From Sulfuricurvum sp. (GTDB lineage Bacteria; Campylobacterota; Campylobacteria; Campylobacterales; Sulfurimonadaceae), in the NCBI GenBank assembly GCA_020721585.1, contig DYMK01000003.1:1-64000 (forward strand): DNA of 64,000 nt. The letters are read 5' to 3'. Both the position numbers and the translations under genes were made by a program. Positions 53,244 to 63,628 of this stretch are shown here, piece after piece. How positions within the stretch are numbered: the first letter of the stretch is position 1; each line of letters starts with the position of its first letter. The notes beneath the pieces are model-generated. The model was not told the origin of the DNA. It was given only the letters and a program-made list of their open reading frames with translations, and searched no databases.

Positions 53244-54365
53244 TTGTCCGATTTGACACTTATTTTACTCGCAGCAGGCGATTCAAGCCGTTTCAAGGTT
53301 CCTGTAAAAAAGCAGTGGCTTCGCATAGACCATGATCCTTTATGGCACTATGTTACCAACCGTATCACAAAAATGGGTGATTTTGCCAAGGTAATTGTGG
53401 TTTCGCATCCGGATGAAGTGGTATTCATGCGTAAGATGTGTGACTATACGTTTGTCGCGGGGGGGAAAACCCGTCAGGAATCCTTGCGTCATGCACTCTT
53501 TGAGGTTCAAACCCCCTTTGTACTGGTCAGTGATATTGCCCGATCGTGTGTGAGTCCTGAGTTGGTACACCGCTTGGTGGAAGCGAAGGGAAAAGCCGAT
53601 TGCATTGTCCCTGTATTGGGGGTGAGCGATACGGTGATTTATGGTGATGATACCATTAATCGTGATCACGTTAAGCGGATTCAAACCCCACAACTCTCCG
53701 CAAAAGCGGTGTTGATGGATGCCTTAAATACCCCACATGAGTATACCGATGAAAGCAGTGCGATTGTCGCGTATGGGGGAACAAGAATCTTTGTGGAAGG
53801 GGACAGTCGCGCCGATAAGATTACCCATGTGCAGGATGTTTTGGCATTAAGCTGTTTGGCTCCCCCCTCAAACGCTACCTTTACGGGGAATGGATTGGAT
53901 GTTCATGGGTTTGAGATGGGTAAACCGATGGTCTTAGGGGGGGTAAGTATTGATAGTCCGTTTGGATTTTTAGCCCACAGTGATGGGGATGTGGCGATTC
54001 ACGCCCTCATTGATGCATTGTTGGGTGCGGCGTGTTTGGGAGATATTGGGATGCTTTTCCCCGATACGGATACGGCGTATAAAAATGCTGATTCCAAAGC
54101 ATTGCTGAGCGAATGTGTTTTAAAACTACACCAATTTGGGTTTGTGGTTCTTCACGCTGACATTACCATTATCGCTCAAACCCCCAAAATTTCCCCCTAC
54201 AAAGAGGCGATGGCGAAGAGCTTAAGCGCTCTTTTGGGGATTCCTCGCTCAAGGATCAACATCAAAGCAACGACGACTGAACAGCATGGATTTATCGGAC
54301 GAAAAGAGGGGATTGCTGTCCTTGCAACCGCTTCGTTACACTATTTTAATTGGACCCTTGGATGA
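53244..54365 (+). CDS. ispDF: Bifunctional IspD-IspF
   Basis: A 373-residue fusion of two MEP-pathway enzymes: the IspD cytidylyltransferase (1-about 205; LLAAGDSSRF, VLVSDIAR) and the IspF cyclase (about 213-373; DVHGFE, HSDGDVAIHALIDALLG with metal-binding His and Asp, KATTTE). This fusion is usual in Campylobacterota. The start is TTG 53244 with AGGA six bases upstream. The stop overlaps the regulator gene (ATGA). Confidence 0.95.
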   Translation: MSDLTLILLAAGDSSRFKVPVKKQWLRIDHDPLWHYVTNRITKMGDFAKVIVVSHPDEVVFMRKMCDYTFVAGGKTRQESLRHALFEVQTPFVLVSDIARSCVSPELVHRLVEAKGKADCIVPVLGVSDTVIYGDDTINRDHVKRIQTPQLSAKAVLMDALNTPHEYTDESSAIVAYGGTRIFVEGDSRADKITHVQDVLALSCLAPPSNATFTGNGLDVHGFEMGKPMVLGGVSIDSPFGFLAHSDGDVAIHALIDALLGAACLGDIGMLFPDTDTAYKNADSKALLSECVLKLHQFGFVVLHADITIIAQTPKISPYKEAMAKSLSALLGIPRSRINIKATTTEQHGFIGRKEGIAVLATASLHYFNWTLG

Positions 54366-55249
54366 ACGTTTTAATTATTGAAAATGAGATCTATCTCGCA
54401 CAAAGTATTGCTTCTAAGTTGAGTGATTTAAATCACAATTGTGATATTAGCAGTTCCCCCAAAGAGGCGTTAAAGGAGAACGTGTACGATGTGATTCTCC
54501 TCTCCACCAACATTAGTGGTCACGATATTTACCCCGTGATTGATGCGTACAAAAATGCGGTAATTATCTTGATGGTCTCCTATGTGAGCAACGATACGGT
54601 TTCAAAACCGCTAGCAGCAGGGGCAAAAGATTACATCCTTAAACCGTTTATGATTGAAGAATTGATCCGAAAAATTCAACATTTTCAACATCATGAACGG
54701 ATTCGTCGTCAAAATGTGATGTACGAACGGTACCTTGCCCATACCTTTGAGAGTGTTACGCTTGAAGAAGATTTTGCCAAAACAGAATTACCGGTAATGG
54801 TTTGCAGCAATTACCCCAAATATGCCGATGCGTTTGCGTTTGGGTATACCAAATATCATAAAAAGACACTTCATTTTATTTCACTCAATACGTCTCATGC
54901 GTTACACGAGATTGCCCTTGCCCCCTCGGGGAGCGTTTTGTACATTACCGATTTTCAAACCCTCAAAAAAAGTGATCACAAAGTGTTTTTCGATTTGATT
55001 GAAAAACGAATGTCTATTATTGCAACAACAGAGCCTTTTGAAACTTTGCCATTTCGTTTGATTACGATTGAGAGTGAAACGCAGTTGTTTGATCAAGGGG
55101 AAATTTTACCCATTGAAGAGTATGTTAAATACATTATGACCAATTTTCAAAACCGTTTTCCCGATACGGAACTCTCCAAAAAATTGGGCATTTCACGTAA
55201 AAGTTTATGGGAAAAGAGAAAAAAATATGGCATCATCAAGAAAAAATAA
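54362..55249 (+). CDS. HP1021/Cj1608-type atypical response regulator
   Basis: A 295-residue regulator: receiver domain (1-120), a linker domain, and a C-terminal DNA-binding helix-turn-helix (about 265-290; LSKKLGISRKSLWEKRKKYG). The phosphorylatable Asp is replaced by Ser48 (VILLSTN), so activity should not depend on phosphorylation, as described for HP1021. Those homologs bind oriC and control many genes in response to redox state. The neighbours (ispDF before, a sat-like gene and pgpA after) match Campylobacter jejuni Cj1607-Cj1610, which I recall as the same order. ATG 54362 overlaps ispDF. Confidence 0.85.
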   Translation: MNVLIIENEIYLAQSIASKLSDLNHNCDISSSPKEALKENVYDVILLSTNISGHDIYPVIDAYKNAVIILMVSYVSNDTVSKPLAAGAKDYILKPFMIEELIRKIQHFQHHERIRRQNVMYERYLAHTFESVTLEEDFAKTELPVMVCSNYPKYADAFAFGYTKYHKKTLHFISLNTSHALHEIALAPSGSVLYITDFQTLKKSDHKVFFDLIEKRMSIIATTEPFETLPFRLITIESETQLFDQGEILPIEEYVKYIMTNFQNRFPDTELSKKLGISRKSLWEKRKKYGIIKKK

Positions 55250-56417
55250 GGCGTTATACATTGACCAAGAGGCATTAAGCGCCCTTGCATTGCTCAAAGC
55301 AGGCATCCTTGCCCCAGTAACCCATTTGATGAATGGCAAGGAGTGCGACGAGGTGCTGCAAAGTGGTGTGTTTAAGGGTTCCACGTTCCCTTTTCCCCTC
55401 ATCCTCTCTCCCAGCGGAAGCAAAAATGAGATTATTTTGATGAACGCCAAAGAGGGGGAACTCCTTGATTTGATATGTGAGCATGAATGGGTGGGGGAAA
55501 TTTGCGTGGATGAGGTATTTCTCATCAACCCTATTGAACGGCTTCGTCAAATTTACGGTACGGAAGACCTCGCCCATCCAGGGGTCAATGCCACCTACAA
55601 ACGGTTGGGAAAATACGCCGTTTGTGGGGAATATACCGTTGATCTTTCCCCCATTGAGGAGATTCGGATTAAAATTCAGCGCGCGCAAGAACAAATTGGG
55701 GCAAAACATACCACTGCTATGTTTATGGCAGCCAATCCGCTCCATCGAGCCCATGAACGATTGATTCGTCAAAGTTTGGAGGGGAGTGATCTCATTGTCA
55801 TCTTTTTACTCAAACCCTACCAAAGCAGTGATCTAAAATATGAGCTTCGGCATGAAACCTTAGAACTCTTTATCCAAAATTATCTTCCGATGGGGCGCGC
55901 CATTGTGGTTCCTTTGGAGAACAGCTACATTTTTGCGGGGAGCAATGAGATTATTTTGGATGCAATTGTGGCGAAAAATTATGGGTGCAATCGGTTGATG
56001 ATCGGGCAAAACCATGCAGGCATCGGGATGTATTATGACCGTAATGCCAACCAAGGGGTAATGGAGCATTTAATAGGGATTGATATTGAAATTTCGATGG
56101 CAAGCGAATATGCCTATTGTAATTCGTGCAAAACGTTAGTCAGTATCCAAACGTGTCCCCATGGGCATCATCATCATATTTCGTACAATTCCGAATCCAT
56201 TTTAGAACTTATGAAACAAGGGATGTTACCCCCTGCGGTGTTGGTGCGTAAAGAAATCTCTTCCCTGATTGTCTCGACCTTGCACCCCCATCGATTTAAA
56301 AATTTAGCCAAGCTCTATTATGATATTATGCCCATTCACGGGTTACTTGAAGAGCACAGTGAAAAAGATTTTTACAATGAACTGATGAATCTTTACCAAA
56401 CTACCTCATTGACCTAA
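55227..56417 (+). CDS. Sulfate adenylyltransferase-like protein
   Basis: A 396-residue protein with an N-terminal PUA-like part and an ATP-sulfurylase domain. NPLHRAHE carries the HxxH-like nucleotide site, GQNHAGIGMYYD is the second signature, and a CxxC ... CPHGH stretch (about 295-312) looks like the zinc site of some sulfurylases. No other assimilation gene lies near, so function (sulfate activation or a related nucleotide transfer) is inferred. It overlaps the regulator gene by 23 bases. Confidence 0.8.
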   Translation: MASSRKNKALYIDQEALSALALLKAGILAPVTHLMNGKECDEVLQSGVFKGSTFPFPLILSPSGSKNEIILMNAKEGELLDLICEHEWVGEICVDEVFLINPIERLRQIYGTEDLAHPGVNATYKRLGKYAVCGEYTVDLSPIEEIRIKIQRAQEQIGAKHTTAMFMAANPLHRAHERLIRQSLEGSDLIVIFLLKPYQSSDLKYELRHETLELFIQNYLPMGRAIVVPLENSYIFAGSNEIILDAIVAKNYGCNRLMIGQNHAGIGMYYDRNANQGVMEHLIGIDIEISMASEYAYCNSCKTLVSIQTCPHGHHHHISYNSESILELMKQGMLPPAVLVRKEISSLIVSTLHPHRFKNLAKLYYDIMPIHGLLEEHSEKDFYNELMNLYQTTSLT

Positions 56418-56433
56418 AGGAGTTGACACAACA

Positions 56434-56949
56434 ATGCGATTAAATTGGTTTTTTCTCACCCTGTTTTACAGTGGTCATGCCAAAAAAGCCCCCGGAACGG
56501 TAGGGACATTGGTCTCTCTCCCTTTGGGAGTTATAGTGTTGATGTTTTTGGGGTCACAAACCCTTTTTATGCTTAGTGTCCTTATTACGTTAATCGCGAT
56601 CAAAGGGATTGACAAGCACGAAGCCATCGTCCAGACCCATGATGATTCGCGCATCGTGATTGATGAATTGGTGGGGATGTGGATCGCCCTCTCCATTGCC
56701 CCTGCGGTGACGTTTACGCTTGGGGAATTAACCACTTTATCCAATGGCATTGCTCTCCAAATTGTGTTGAGTTTTCTCTTTTTTCGGGGGTATGATATTG
56801 CCAAACCTTCCCTTATTGGACGGATTGACCGTGAGGTCAAAGGGGGACTTGGGGTAATGGGAGATGATATTTTGGCGGGGTTTGCTGCTGGGATTACGAC
56901 GGCATTGGTGTGGCAAGTGATCCTTAAACTCCAACCGTTGTTGGGATAA
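56434..56949 (+). CDS. pgpA: Phosphatidylglycerophosphatase A
   Basis: A 171-residue membrane enzyme that makes phosphatidylglycerol. GHAKKAPGTVGTL and the DELVGMW stretch with conserved acidic residues are the PgpA motifs; helices follow. AAAGGAG precedes ATG 56434. It lies 16 bases after the sat-like gene and just before ovoA. Confidence 0.93.
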   Translation: MRLNWFFLTLFYSGHAKKAPGTVGTLVSLPLGVIVLMFLGSQTLFMLSVLITLIAIKGIDKHEAIVQTHDDSRIVIDELVGMWIALSIAPAVTFTLGELTTLSNGIALQIVLSFLFFRGYDIAKPSLIGRIDREVKGGLGVMGDDILAGFAAGITTALVWQVILKLQPLLG

Positions 56950-56965
56950 CACAAAGGGGAAAGCA

Positions 56966-58384
56966 ATGATAGATAAATTAATGGTCTCCGTCCCCTTAGA
57001 TGGGACGTATGTTGAAGTGAAGCGTGAAGAGGTGCGTCGCTATTTTCACCAAAGTTTTGATCTGTTTGAATCACTGTTTGACCTTTTACGCAGTGATGAG
57101 GTTTTTTATCTCCAATCCGAACCCACCCGCCACCCGATGATTTTTTATTTTGGGCATACGGCTATTTTTTATATCAATAAATTGGTCGCCTCTGGCGCAT
57201 TAACCCAACGGATCAATCCCCATTTTGAAGAACTTTTTGCGGTTGGAGTGGATGAGATGCGATGGGATACTCCAAGTCATTTATTGCAATGGCCTTTGGT
57301 CGCGGAAGTACGAGAGTATCGTAAAGCCGTTCGTGCGTGTGTCGATCATCTCATTCAAACCCTCCCTATGACCCTCCCTGTGACCCAAAAAGACCCTTTT
57401 TGGGCAATTTGGATGGGGATTGAACACGAACGCATCCACATTGAGACCTCCAGTGTTCTCCATCGTCAAATGCCTTTAAAGCATATTCAGTTCGATGTCC
57501 GTTTTGCACAGTGTCCTTCGTATGGGGAACACCCTATCAATCGTCTTGTCCCGTTTGAGGGGATGAAGATCACCTTAGGGAAAGGGTCTGAAGATCGTGG
57601 GTTATACGGTTGGGATAACGAGTATGGGGAAGAGACCCTCGAAGTTGAACCTTTTCAAGCCTCCCGTTATTTGGTGAGTAATGGGGAATTTTTGGAATTT
57701 GTTCAAGAGGGTGGGTATCAAAATCCTAAATACTGGGATGAAGAGGGATTAAGGTATCTCTCACTCTCCCATGCGCAATGCCCCCCCTTCTGGATTTCAC
57801 AAGCTAACGGGGAATTTTTTACCTATCGAACGCTCACGCAAGAGGTTCCCCTTCCGCTTAACTGGCCCGTAGAAGTCAATGCCCTTGAAGCGGAAGCGTT
57901 TTGCCGTTGGAAAAGTGCCAACACCCCCCATATTATCCAACTTCCCAGTGAAGCACAGTGGCGGGTAATGCTTGCCCATACCAAATTAGACACCCCCATT
58001 TTTGATTCCATTCATGCCAATATCAATTTTGCCCATTACGCCTCATCGGTTCCAGTAAATACCTTTTTGCATGGGAAACTGTACGATGTGGTAGGGAATG
58101 TATGGCAATGGACGCAAACCCAAATGGCACCGTATAAGGGATTTTTACCCCATCCGTGGTACGAAGATTTCACCGAACCTACCTTTGATGGGAAGCATAA
58201 TCTTATCAAAGGGGGATCGTGGGCTTCGAGTGGGAATGAGATCATGCGCGCTTCCCGTTACGCTTTTCGCCGCCATTTTATCCAACATGCAGGTTTTCGT
58301 TATGTGGTAGGGGGGGAGTCATCGACGCAAAAATACCGTCGTATCCAAGCGATGGAAAAAGCGTGGAAACAACGGTATGGATGA
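56966..58384 (+). CDS. ovoA: 5-histidylcysteine sulfoxide synthase OvoA, without methyltransferase domain
   Basis: A 472-residue non-haem iron enzyme that joins cysteine to the C5 of histidine as a sulfoxide. An N-terminal DinB-like domain carries HPMIFYFGHTAIFYINKL, and GIEHERIHIE gives His154, His158 and Glu160; with His64 these match the three-His iron site known from the EgtB family. A C-terminal FGE-sulfatase fold ends with FRRHFIQHAGFRYV. Known full-length OvoA proteins continue there into a methyltransferase domain of over 200 residues; this one stops about 25 residues later. The unmethylated product 5-thiohistidine would result unless another enzyme methylates it. AAGGGGAAA precedes ATG 56966. 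It overlaps ovoB by 8 bases. Confidence 0.85.
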   Translation: MIDKLMVSVPLDGTYVEVKREEVRRYFHQSFDLFESLFDLLRSDEVFYLQSEPTRHPMIFYFGHTAIFYINKLVASGALTQRINPHFEELFAVGVDEMRWDTPSHLLQWPLVAEVREYRKAVRACVDHLIQTLPMTLPVTQKDPFWAIWMGIEHERIHIETSSVLHRQMPLKHIQFDVRFAQCPSYGEHPINRLVPFEGMKITLGKGSEDRGLYGWDNEYGEETLEVEPFQASRYLVSNGEFLEFVQEGGYQNPKYWDEEGLRYLSLSHAQCPPFWISQANGEFFTYRTLTQEVPLPLNWPVEVNALEAEAFCRWKSANTPHIIQLPSEAQWRVMLAHTKLDTPIFDSIHANINFAHYASSVPVNTFLHGKLYDVVGNVWQWTQTQMAPYKGFLPHPWYEDFTEPTFDGKHNLIKGGSWASSGNEIMRASRYAFRRHFIQHAGFRYVVGGESSTQKYRRIQAMEKAWKQRYG

Positions 58385-59549
58385 GTTTAAGGCAATTGAT
58401 CGAGCTAGCTCCAATGCCGAAAAATACCAATTACGGGAAAAGCTTTTTGGTTCCAACGATGTACAACCTTTATGGGTGGCGGATATGGATATTGCTACCC
58501 CGCAATGTGTTTTGGAGGTGGTCAAACATCGCTTAAACCACCCTATCCTTGGGTATGAAATGATGCCACGAAGTGCTTTTGAGGCGCAGTGTGCGTGGAT
58601 TTTGTCTCATCATGCTTGGAGGATTGACCCCCAATGGCTTTTGTATTCCCCCTCGGTGGTGGCATCGCTTGGATGTGCGGTGCGTGCGTTGAGTAAAGTG
58701 GGGGATGAAATTATCGTCATGAGTCCGGTCTATCCCCCCTTTTTTACGGTTGTGACCGATAATCATCGCCAAGTGATTCGCTACTCCTTGACTCAAAATG
58801 GGGAGGGAAACTATTCGCTTGATAGTAGAGACCTAGAGCGACTCATTACCCCCAAAACAACGATGCTGCTGTTATGTTCCCCCCACAATCCTATTGGGCG
58901 GGTATGGGATAAAGACGAATTAAAAGCACTGGGAGCTTTTTGTTTGGCACATAATATCACCATTGTGAGCGATGAAATTCACAGTGATTTGGTGTTTGAG
59001 GGGCATTGCCATACCCCAATAGCCTCTTTGTCTCCCGAATTATCGGAGAGTACTGTGACGTTATTGGGGGTAGGGAAAACCTTTAATATGTCAGGATTTG
59101 GTATCTCAACGGTGTGTATCGCTTCTAAAAGGTTACGAGAAAAATTTCAGTATGAAACGCAAAAAATCCATTGGGGTGAGGGATCGGTTCTTTCACACGT
59201 GGCATTTGAAGCAGCGTACAACGAGGGAGGTCAATGGCATCAAAGGCTTCTCATGCATCTAAGTGGTAATAAAGAGCGATTACTCCAATGGTCAGATTCT
59301 CAAAATTTTATCACGGTAATGCCCCCTGAGGGAACCTATCTTGCGTGGTTGGATTGTCGCCCCTTGGGATTAAACGATCGTGATTTACGTCACTTTATGG
59401 TGCATGAAGCGCGATTGGGGGTGAGTATGGGGGTAAGTTTTGGGAAAGAAGGATCAGGGTTTGTCCGTCTTAATTTTGCCATAGCGCGTGACTCTTTGGA
59501 AGAAGCATTAAATCGACTTAATACTGCTCTGGCAAAACTTTCGTTATAA
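58377..59549 (+). CDS. ovoB: OvoB-type PLP sulfoxide lyase (MalY/PatB family)
   Basis: A 390-residue fold-type I PLP enzyme of the MalY/PatB C-S lyase group. WVADMDIATP opens it, SPHNPIGRVW and SDEIHSDL are conserved, and the PLP lysine is Lys234 in GVGKTFNMSGF. Alone it would be called cystathionine beta-lyase, but its ATG lies inside the ovoA end (8-base overlap), and OvoB, the lyase cutting the OvoA sulfoxide to 5-thiohistidine, belongs to this family. The pathway role is inferred from the context. Confidence 0.8.
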   Translation: MDEFKAIDRASSNAEKYQLREKLFGSNDVQPLWVADMDIATPQCVLEVVKHRLNHPILGYEMMPRSAFEAQCAWILSHHAWRIDPQWLLYSPSVVASLGCAVRALSKVGDEIIVMSPVYPPFFTVVTDNHRQVIRYSLTQNGEGNYSLDSRDLERLITPKTTMLLLCSPHNPIGRVWDKDELKALGAFCLAHNITIVSDEIHSDLVFEGHCHTPIASLSPELSESTVTLLGVGKTFNMSGFGISTVCIASKRLREKFQYETQKIHWGEGSVLSHVAFEAAYNEGGQWHQRLLMHLSGNKERLLQWSDSQNFITVMPPEGTYLAWLDCRPLGLNDRDLRHFMVHEARLGVSMGVSFGKEGSGFVRLNFAIARDSLEEALNRLNTALAKLSL

Positions 59550-62884: not shown

Positions 62885-63286
62885 TTACGGTTCCTGACTT
62901 ATTTTTAAACAGTTGATTGATACATCGTTTCGCATCGTTTGAAGTACCAATAAAAGTTCAGAAATATTATTTTGGCAAATTCCATAAATCATTTCAGCAT
63001 CCAAATCAAAATAATGGTGACTGATAAAATCTCTAATTCCTTTAATTTTTTTCCATTCAATTGTTGGATAAAGTGGTAAAAGCGTGTGATTCGTAATCTT
63101 ATCAATATTTTTTAGACTTTCACCAATAGCGATTAGTTTCATACAAATACTATCGAGTTTTTCTTGCCCTGCTTTTGTATCCATAAAGTCATCAACACAC
63201 GTGGCGTATACGCATCGCTCTTGCACAATCTCAATTGATTCTATAATCTGGTCGAGTATTTCTATCACTAAAACTTTATCATACAT
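62885..63286 (-). CDS. HepT-like HEPN RNase toxin (DUF86), module 2
   Basis: A 133-residue DUF86/HEPN protein with the canonical RX4HXY motif (RDFISHHYFD). It should be an RNase silenced by AMPylation of the motif tyrosine by its partner. ATG 63286 overlaps the antitoxin gene by 8 bases. It is only distantly similar to module 1 (both have YLDEIL-type helices and the motif region), which suggests separate acquisition. Confidence 0.85.
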   Translation of the reverse strand: MYDKVLVIEILDQIIESIEIVQERCVYATCVDDFMDTKAGQEKLDSICMKLIAIGESLKNIDKITNHTLLPLYPTIEWKKIKGIRDFISHHYFDLDAEMIYGICQNNISELLLVLQTMRNDVSINCLKISQEP

Positions 63287-63569
63287 AAATAGCCTCTCTT
63301 AAAATCCTATTTTTTAAAGAGAGATTCATTTTATCTCTCAGTCTGATAACATCAACTTTGGTATGAAATCTATTTTCTAATGTCTCTTTAAAATCATACA
63401 GAACAAAATAATCGCTCAGTTGTGTCTCAATAGCAATATCAACATCACTATCGTCTCGATTTTCCCCTCGGGCATACGAGCCAAAAAGTGCCATTTTAGA
63501 AATTTGATATTTATTTTTAAACTCATTTTTGTGCTGTTTTAGATAGTGTAATATTTCTTCTTTTATCAT
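63279..63569 (-). CDS. MntA-like nucleotidyltransferase antitoxin, module 2
   Basis: A 96-residue minimal nucleotidyltransferase with GSYARG and DVDIAI, the GSX10DXD motif. The start is ATG 63569 (MIKEEILHYL); a longer in-frame reading to 63602 has no matching sequence. Pairs with the overlapping HepT gene. Confidence 0.85.
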   Translation of the reverse strand: MIKEEILHYLKQHKNEFKNKYQISKMALFGSYARGENRDDSDVDIAIETQLSDYFVLYDFKETLENRFHTKVDVIRLRDKMNLSLKNRILREAIYV

Positions 63570-63599
63570 TAAATACCTCTTACTATAATGTAAGCAACT

Positions 63600-63628
63600 C
63601 AATTGCGTCCGCAGTGTGGACGTAATTG
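63600..63628. repeat. Intergenic palindrome, ATTGCGTCC type
   Basis: CAATTGCGTCC and GGACGTAATTG pair in 10 of 11 positions around GCAGTGT. It resembles the ATTGCGGA hairpin at 51568 and lies between the antitoxin and the zinc-ribbon gene. Confidence 0.65.

Follow-up and report, generated by a model that had tools for sequence, protein, structure and literature searches.

Gene content and family identity of the ovoA-ovoB locus

Two overlapping genes of the forward strand, ovoA and ovoB, end a same-strand run of genes in the window, the whole stretch of 64,000 nucleotides analyzed (Table 1). The position of ovoAB after pgpA departs from the gene order of the relatives, and the 8-bp overlap of the two genes, which contains both the start codon of ovoB (ATG) and the stop codon of ovoA (TGA), recurs in other Sulfuricurvum.

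Table 1. Coordinates of the ovoA-ovoB locus (window positions) and of loci compared with it in other genomes (locus labels).
Feature	Position	Strand	Description
Upstream co-directional run	53244-56949	+	ispDF fusion, response regulator, ATP-sulfurylase-like, pgpA; gaps short or absent
Probable ribosome-binding site of ovoA	56953-56960	+	AAAGGGGA, 5 bases before ATG; direct sequence reading
ovoA	56966-58384	+	472 aa; TIGR04344, 613 bits; phmmer, 500 bits to OvoA 8KHQ; genus clade support 100; predicted from its family as 5-histidylcysteine sulfoxide synthase without C-terminal methyltransferase (MT) domain
DinB_2 domain	57044-57448	+	OvoA residues 27-161; Pfam PF12867, 33.9 bits
His64, presumed iron ligand 1	57155-57157	+	Invariant in the OvoA set; also His in EgtB-IV; ligand role presumed from the family
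His154...His158 (HERIH), presumed iron ligands 2 and 3	57425-57439	+	Invariant in the OvoA set; ligand role presumed from the family
FGE-sulfatase-like domain	57584-58306	+	OvoA residues 207-447; Pfam PF03781, 91 bits
Short C-terminal tail	58307-58381	+	25 aa, replacing the MT domain
ovoA stop/ovoB start overlap	58377-58384	+	8 bp, ATGGATGA
ovoB	58377-59549	+	390 aa; PLP-dependent PatB/MalY-type C-S lyase; TIGR04350, 515 bits
ADP-ribosylglycohydrolase and OvoM loci	L074:5865-7713, L167, L168, L169, L171, L174-L180, L182, L184		
Fused-OvoA loci with distant hydrolase	L150:7108-9108, L128:3738-6789, L138:4501-6250, L146:6700-9756		

The match of OvoA to the NCBIfam model ovoA_Nterm (TIGR04344) was above the cut-off of 400 bits and covered model positions 4-444 of 444; its scores were below the cut-offs for EgtB (175 vs 360 bits) and SenA (165 vs 420 bits). 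Among solved structures, the best match (8KHQ) spanned residues 25-456 of a 728-residue chain, the rest of which is the MT domain, and EgtB-IV was the second-ranking family (341 bits). The MT region of 8KHQ is 100% identical to that of a campylobacterotal genome (G125). In OvoA, the Pfam domains follow the order DinB_2, then FGE-sulfatase. Every residue invariant among OvoA was kept, including the triad H64, H154 and H158, as were all OvoA-type residues at which EgtB-IV differs (H56, E155, Q381, Y432 and H437). OvoB scored above the cut-off of the PatB C-S lyase model (340 bits), and its nearest solved structures were 4DGT and PatB 6QP3. The initial annotation had read the locus as an OvoA with iron-site residues, ending after its FGE-like domain and overlapping the gene of a MalY/PatB-type lyase by 8 bases, and the two identities, the missing MT domain and the overlap were borne out.

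In the C-terminal tail of OvoA, the pattern K-Y-x-R-I-x-x-M-x-x-x-W-x-K-R-Y-G was conserved across 24 members of the genus, with Trp and Lys invariant. The conserved tail was confined to one group of MT-less proteins, the other group keeping 4 aa there, and contact of the tail with OvoB is possible. Derivation of the 25-aa tail from the first helix of an MT domain, both of which end in YG, was unsupported (52 of 300 shuffles scored equally high).

A PNPOx-like gene follows ovoAB in most Sulfuricurvum and lies on another contig in the window genome (G000:C88:430-822). Its presence in 40 of the 41 genus genomes regardless of OvoM state makes it an unlikely substitute tailoring enzyme.

Methyltransferase domains in the window's genome and in the genus

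The genome that contains the window (G000; 2.29 Mb, 112 contigs, 99.9% complete) returned no stand-alone OvoA-type MT. The model of the OvoA C-terminal MT (TIGR04345) matched nothing above 24 bits, a level also found in all 14 control genomes, and an OvoM from the same genus, used as query, gave a best match of only E = 0.018. At the dnaX-flanking site, which houses OvoM in many relatives, the genome carries other genes, with no remnant of OvoM or of ADP-ribosylglycohydrolase. Among the neighbors of ovoAB no methyltransferase was found, nor was an acetyltransferase found among those within the window. EgtD was absent from the genome, which therefore has no hercynine route and not the ergothioneine pathway.

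Among 41 species-level Sulfuricurvum genomes, OvoA was present in 40 (the exception is 57% complete), and in none of the 41 was a full MT fused to it. A separate full TIGR04345 protein, OvoM, occurred in 20/41 (usual frame 252-269 aa; approximately 300 bits), and an eroded fused domain was the sole MT in 4/41 (100-122 bits); G420 had both an eroded fused domain and a separate full MT. Neither OvoM nor an eroded domain was found in 17/41, including the window's genome, and nine of these 17 were at least 97% complete (e.g., G361, of 5 contigs, and G307, of 2). Truncation of OvoA by a frameshift or assembly gap after position 58384 was rejected because the MT-less form recurs throughout the genus and the sequence downstream contains no MT piece. 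The earlier proposal of either an unmethylated product or a separate MT thus describes two gene states that both occur in the genus (17/41 and 20/41), and the window's genome favors the state without an OvoM-type MT.

OvoA architecture across Campylobacterota

OvoA was found in 119 of 397 Campylobacterota genomes, with TIGR04345 above its cut-off in 103. The typical frame, of approximately 700 aa, was fused to the MT in most of the phylum set, including lineages sister to Sulfuricurvum. In 16 of the 119 OvoA-bearing genomes, no MT match in the entire genome exceeded the curated cut-off. In six of these 16, all of the window's genus, OvoA was MT-less (frames of 472-502 aa; no match at E 1e-12), and in the other 10 it had a shortened C-terminal domain (frames of 621-661 aa; that of G134 was below the search threshold). 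The shortened domains (nine examples) retained a SAM-binding-like motif and had lost the C-terminal stretch with SPYTW and ETPRK, both conserved motifs of full MT domains. A match to OvoA is consequently not equivalent to ovothiol production, which is a warning for annotation.

Eroded-MT OvoA (approximately 620-660 aa) was observed in several families (L067, L076-L083), and the tree suggests several independent origins of the eroded domains. One genome outside Sulfuricurvum (G299; L075:6925-7665) had both an eroded fused MT and a full 246-aa MT on a gene of its own. The latter branched with the fused domains, outside the OvoM clade of Sulfuricurvum, and a relocation in trans seems to have taken place independently a second time.

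Phylogeny and selection

The OvoA tree was computed by a quick method from the sulfoxide synthase part, with SH-aLRT support. The 38 genus sequences placed on it (33 without an MT domain and five with an eroded one) formed one clade (support 100), embedded among the fused forms; EgtB-IV fell outside OvoA. Within the genus, four eroded-domain sequences diverged first (grouping support 93); the other 34 included 33 MT-less proteins, among them that of G406, which is interrupted by a contig end. The window OvoA fell within a subclade of 18 rows (support 97), 15 of them without OvoM. The simplest picture of the genus history is that the MT domain was fused, then eroded, then lost.

On a separate MT tree, to be read with caution because long branches can mislead, the OvoM proteins of the genus formed one clade (support 96), sister to the full fused MT domain of another campylobacterotal MAG (L150; support 96), and the eroded domains of the genus stood apart on a long branch. 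Derivation of OvoM from the genus's own eroded domain was thus unsupported, subject to the same caution, and replacement is a likelier origin of OvoM than descent from that domain.

The dN/dS of ovoA was 0.05-0.13 in five pairs without OvoM (synonymous change was saturated in one pair) and 0.06-0.10 in pairs with OvoM. OvoA is thus under strong purifying selection, unrelaxed where OvoM is missing. The comparison of ovoB covered two distant pairs, the loci being short.

Stand-alone OvoM and ADP-ribosylglycohydrolase

The separate MT of G389 matched PDB entry 9BXL, "5-thiohistidine N-methyltransferase OvoM", at 354 bits; over the 246 aligned residues, 9BXL and the separate MT of another genome of the genus (G418) were 100% identical. 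The split pathway of MT-less OvoA plus OvoM is therefore established for Sulfuricurvum, at least at the level of a named, crystallized enzyme. Around 2025, stand-alone ovothiol methyltransferases of the OvoM type were reportedly described as a new clade.

Immediately upstream of the stand-alone OvoM lay a homologue of ADP-ribosylglycohydrolase (PF03747, 120 bits; Table 1). Of the 20 genus genomes that have OvoM, 16 carry this hydrolase, as against 0 of the 21 lacking OvoM (Fisher p = 5e-8; the genomes are related, so that p overstates independence). In G176 the two are fused into one protein of 613 aa, with an ADP-ribosylglycohydrolase as the N-terminal half and OvoM as the C-terminal half. 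The hydrolase may be a so far unrecognized partner in ovothiol metabolism.

Four loci with fused OvoA also contained a distant homologue of the hydrolase (72-92 bits), downstream of ovoAB within a few genes (Table 1). The order there was ovoA-ovoB, a SIR2-like gene with the distant homologue, then the PNPOx-like gene; by eye, the start of the SIR2-like gene resembles a SIR2-type NAD-dependent deacylase.

Proposed pathway and alternative explanations

The ovoA-ovoB pair is probably a two-gene thiohistidine pathway, with 5-thiohistidine as its final or differently tailored product; the activities are transferred from the enzyme families (PMC12631010). In an iron- and oxygen-dependent reaction, OvoA would link cysteine to histidine C5, giving 5-histidylcysteine sulfoxide, and OvoB, from an overlapping gene that is probably translationally coupled to ovoA, would cleave the sulfoxide and release 5-thiohistidine. 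Early in the history of the genus, OvoA presumably passed through an eroded stage and then lost its MT domain; as the window lineage has no stand-alone OvoM either, the methylation step that normally completes the antioxidant ovothiol A would be missing, and the pathway would stop at 5-thiohistidine or branch to another tailoring enzyme. As end product, this points most probably to 5-thiohistidine itself or to a derivative of it formed by an enzyme not related to OvoM. That a clade of Sulfuricurvum, without fused MT and OvoM, has a functional pathway ending at unmethylated 5-thiohistidine (or an undescribed derivative) is a favored reading, held with somewhat more reserve.

Formation of ovothiol A after all, by a methyltransferase acting in trans and not homologous to OvoC/OvoM, is unlikely. 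Methylation in trans is normal here, half of the genus having the step on a separate gene, and generic methyltransferase folds are present in the window's genome (weak match at C87, 24 bits), but such matches were no higher than in the control genomes, none adjoined ovoAB, and the relatives that methylate do so with an OvoM that is readily detected. Similarly small is the chance that 5-thiohistidine is tailored in another way, such as by N-acetylation like that of the Bacteroidota enzyme 5THNAT, with the derivative as product: some truncated MT-less OvoA are encoded together with 5THNAT, an enzyme that accepts 5-thiohistidine, but not ovothiol, for acetylation (PMC12631010), but no acetyltransferase neighbors ovoAB in the window, and the loci of the relatives, compared by clustering, had no common extra gene as a candidate.

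An OvoM that is present in the genome and missing from the assembly is very improbable. A gene could be lost in a gap between 112 contigs, but completeness is nearly full, the OvoM-less state clusters on the OvoA tree, and related near-closed genomes show the same state. Just as little weight falls on the window protein acting on another substrate, as an EgtB-IV-like or other sulfoxide synthase. Among solved families EgtB-IV comes second and likewise has no MT domain, but it scored 341 bits vs 500 bits for OvoA, the window protein is nested in OvoA with EgtB-IV outside, and EgtD is missing; scores, residues, tree and absence of EgtD together reject an EgtB or EgtB-IV identity. The tree likewise does not show the placement with EgtB or another sulfoxide synthase that the initial annotation had named as a refutation.

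Comparison with known systems

The window OvoA shares with fused OvoA such as 8KHQ the DinB and FGE-like sulfoxide synthase, the invariant residues and an ovoB that is often directly downstream, but the known enzyme runs on into an MT domain of approximately 240 aa in place of the short tail. Sulfuricurvum with OvoM (9BXL) are of the same genus, with the same MT-less OvoA and overlapping ovoB; they differ in having OvoM and, usually, the adjoining ADP-ribosylglycohydrolase, both missing from the window's genome. Bacteroidota can N-acetylate 5-thiohistidine instead, and some of their OvoA are also truncated (PMC12631010). That system has in common with the window an MT-less OvoA and 5-thiohistidine as branch point, but it belongs to another phylum, no 5THNAT candidate lies beside the window ovoAB, and the domain was likely lost separately. 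EgtB-IV (8VIG, 8VIH), likewise a sulfoxide synthase that stands alone, matches the window OvoA in family and size, but is outside the OvoA clade and differs at OvoA-invariant residues.

The "distinct branch" of thiohistidine metabolism proposed earlier was overstated and is only partly new. OvoA-like proteins without an MT domain were mentioned in a 2022 review (PMC9103826, section 3.6) and in the 2025 paper on 5THNAT (PMC12631010), and the structure of OvoM was already known. New, as far as the sources show, are the loss of the MT across the whole genus Sulfuricurvum, the eroded stage surviving at its base, the 17/41 genomes without any OvoM-type MT domain, and the link between ADP-ribosylglycohydrolase and OvoM. 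The genus-wide series of fused, eroded and lost domains, with replacement in trans, is an addition of the present analysis. For the question of why cells methylate 5-thiohistidine, Sulfuricurvum offers a natural comparison, in which OvoA and OvoB stay the same and the methyl step is present or absent, near relatives within one genus having OvoM, an eroded MT domain or neither.

Minor observations

In G402 (L205), and also in L101, an 801-aa frame joins OvoA to OvoB with approximately the first 45 residues of OvoB missing; it is either a deletion fusion or a MAG artefact. A partial OvoC-type methyltransferase, containing an internal TAG, was found at G058:C1:1074543-1074917 (within L232), in a genome for which OvoA is not listed, and is possibly a relic of a lost pathway. 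On the reverse strand of the window (62885-63602), a HepT-like gene (PF01934, 58.9 bits) lies beside a small ORF, the two possibly forming a HepT/MntA toxin-antitoxin pair.
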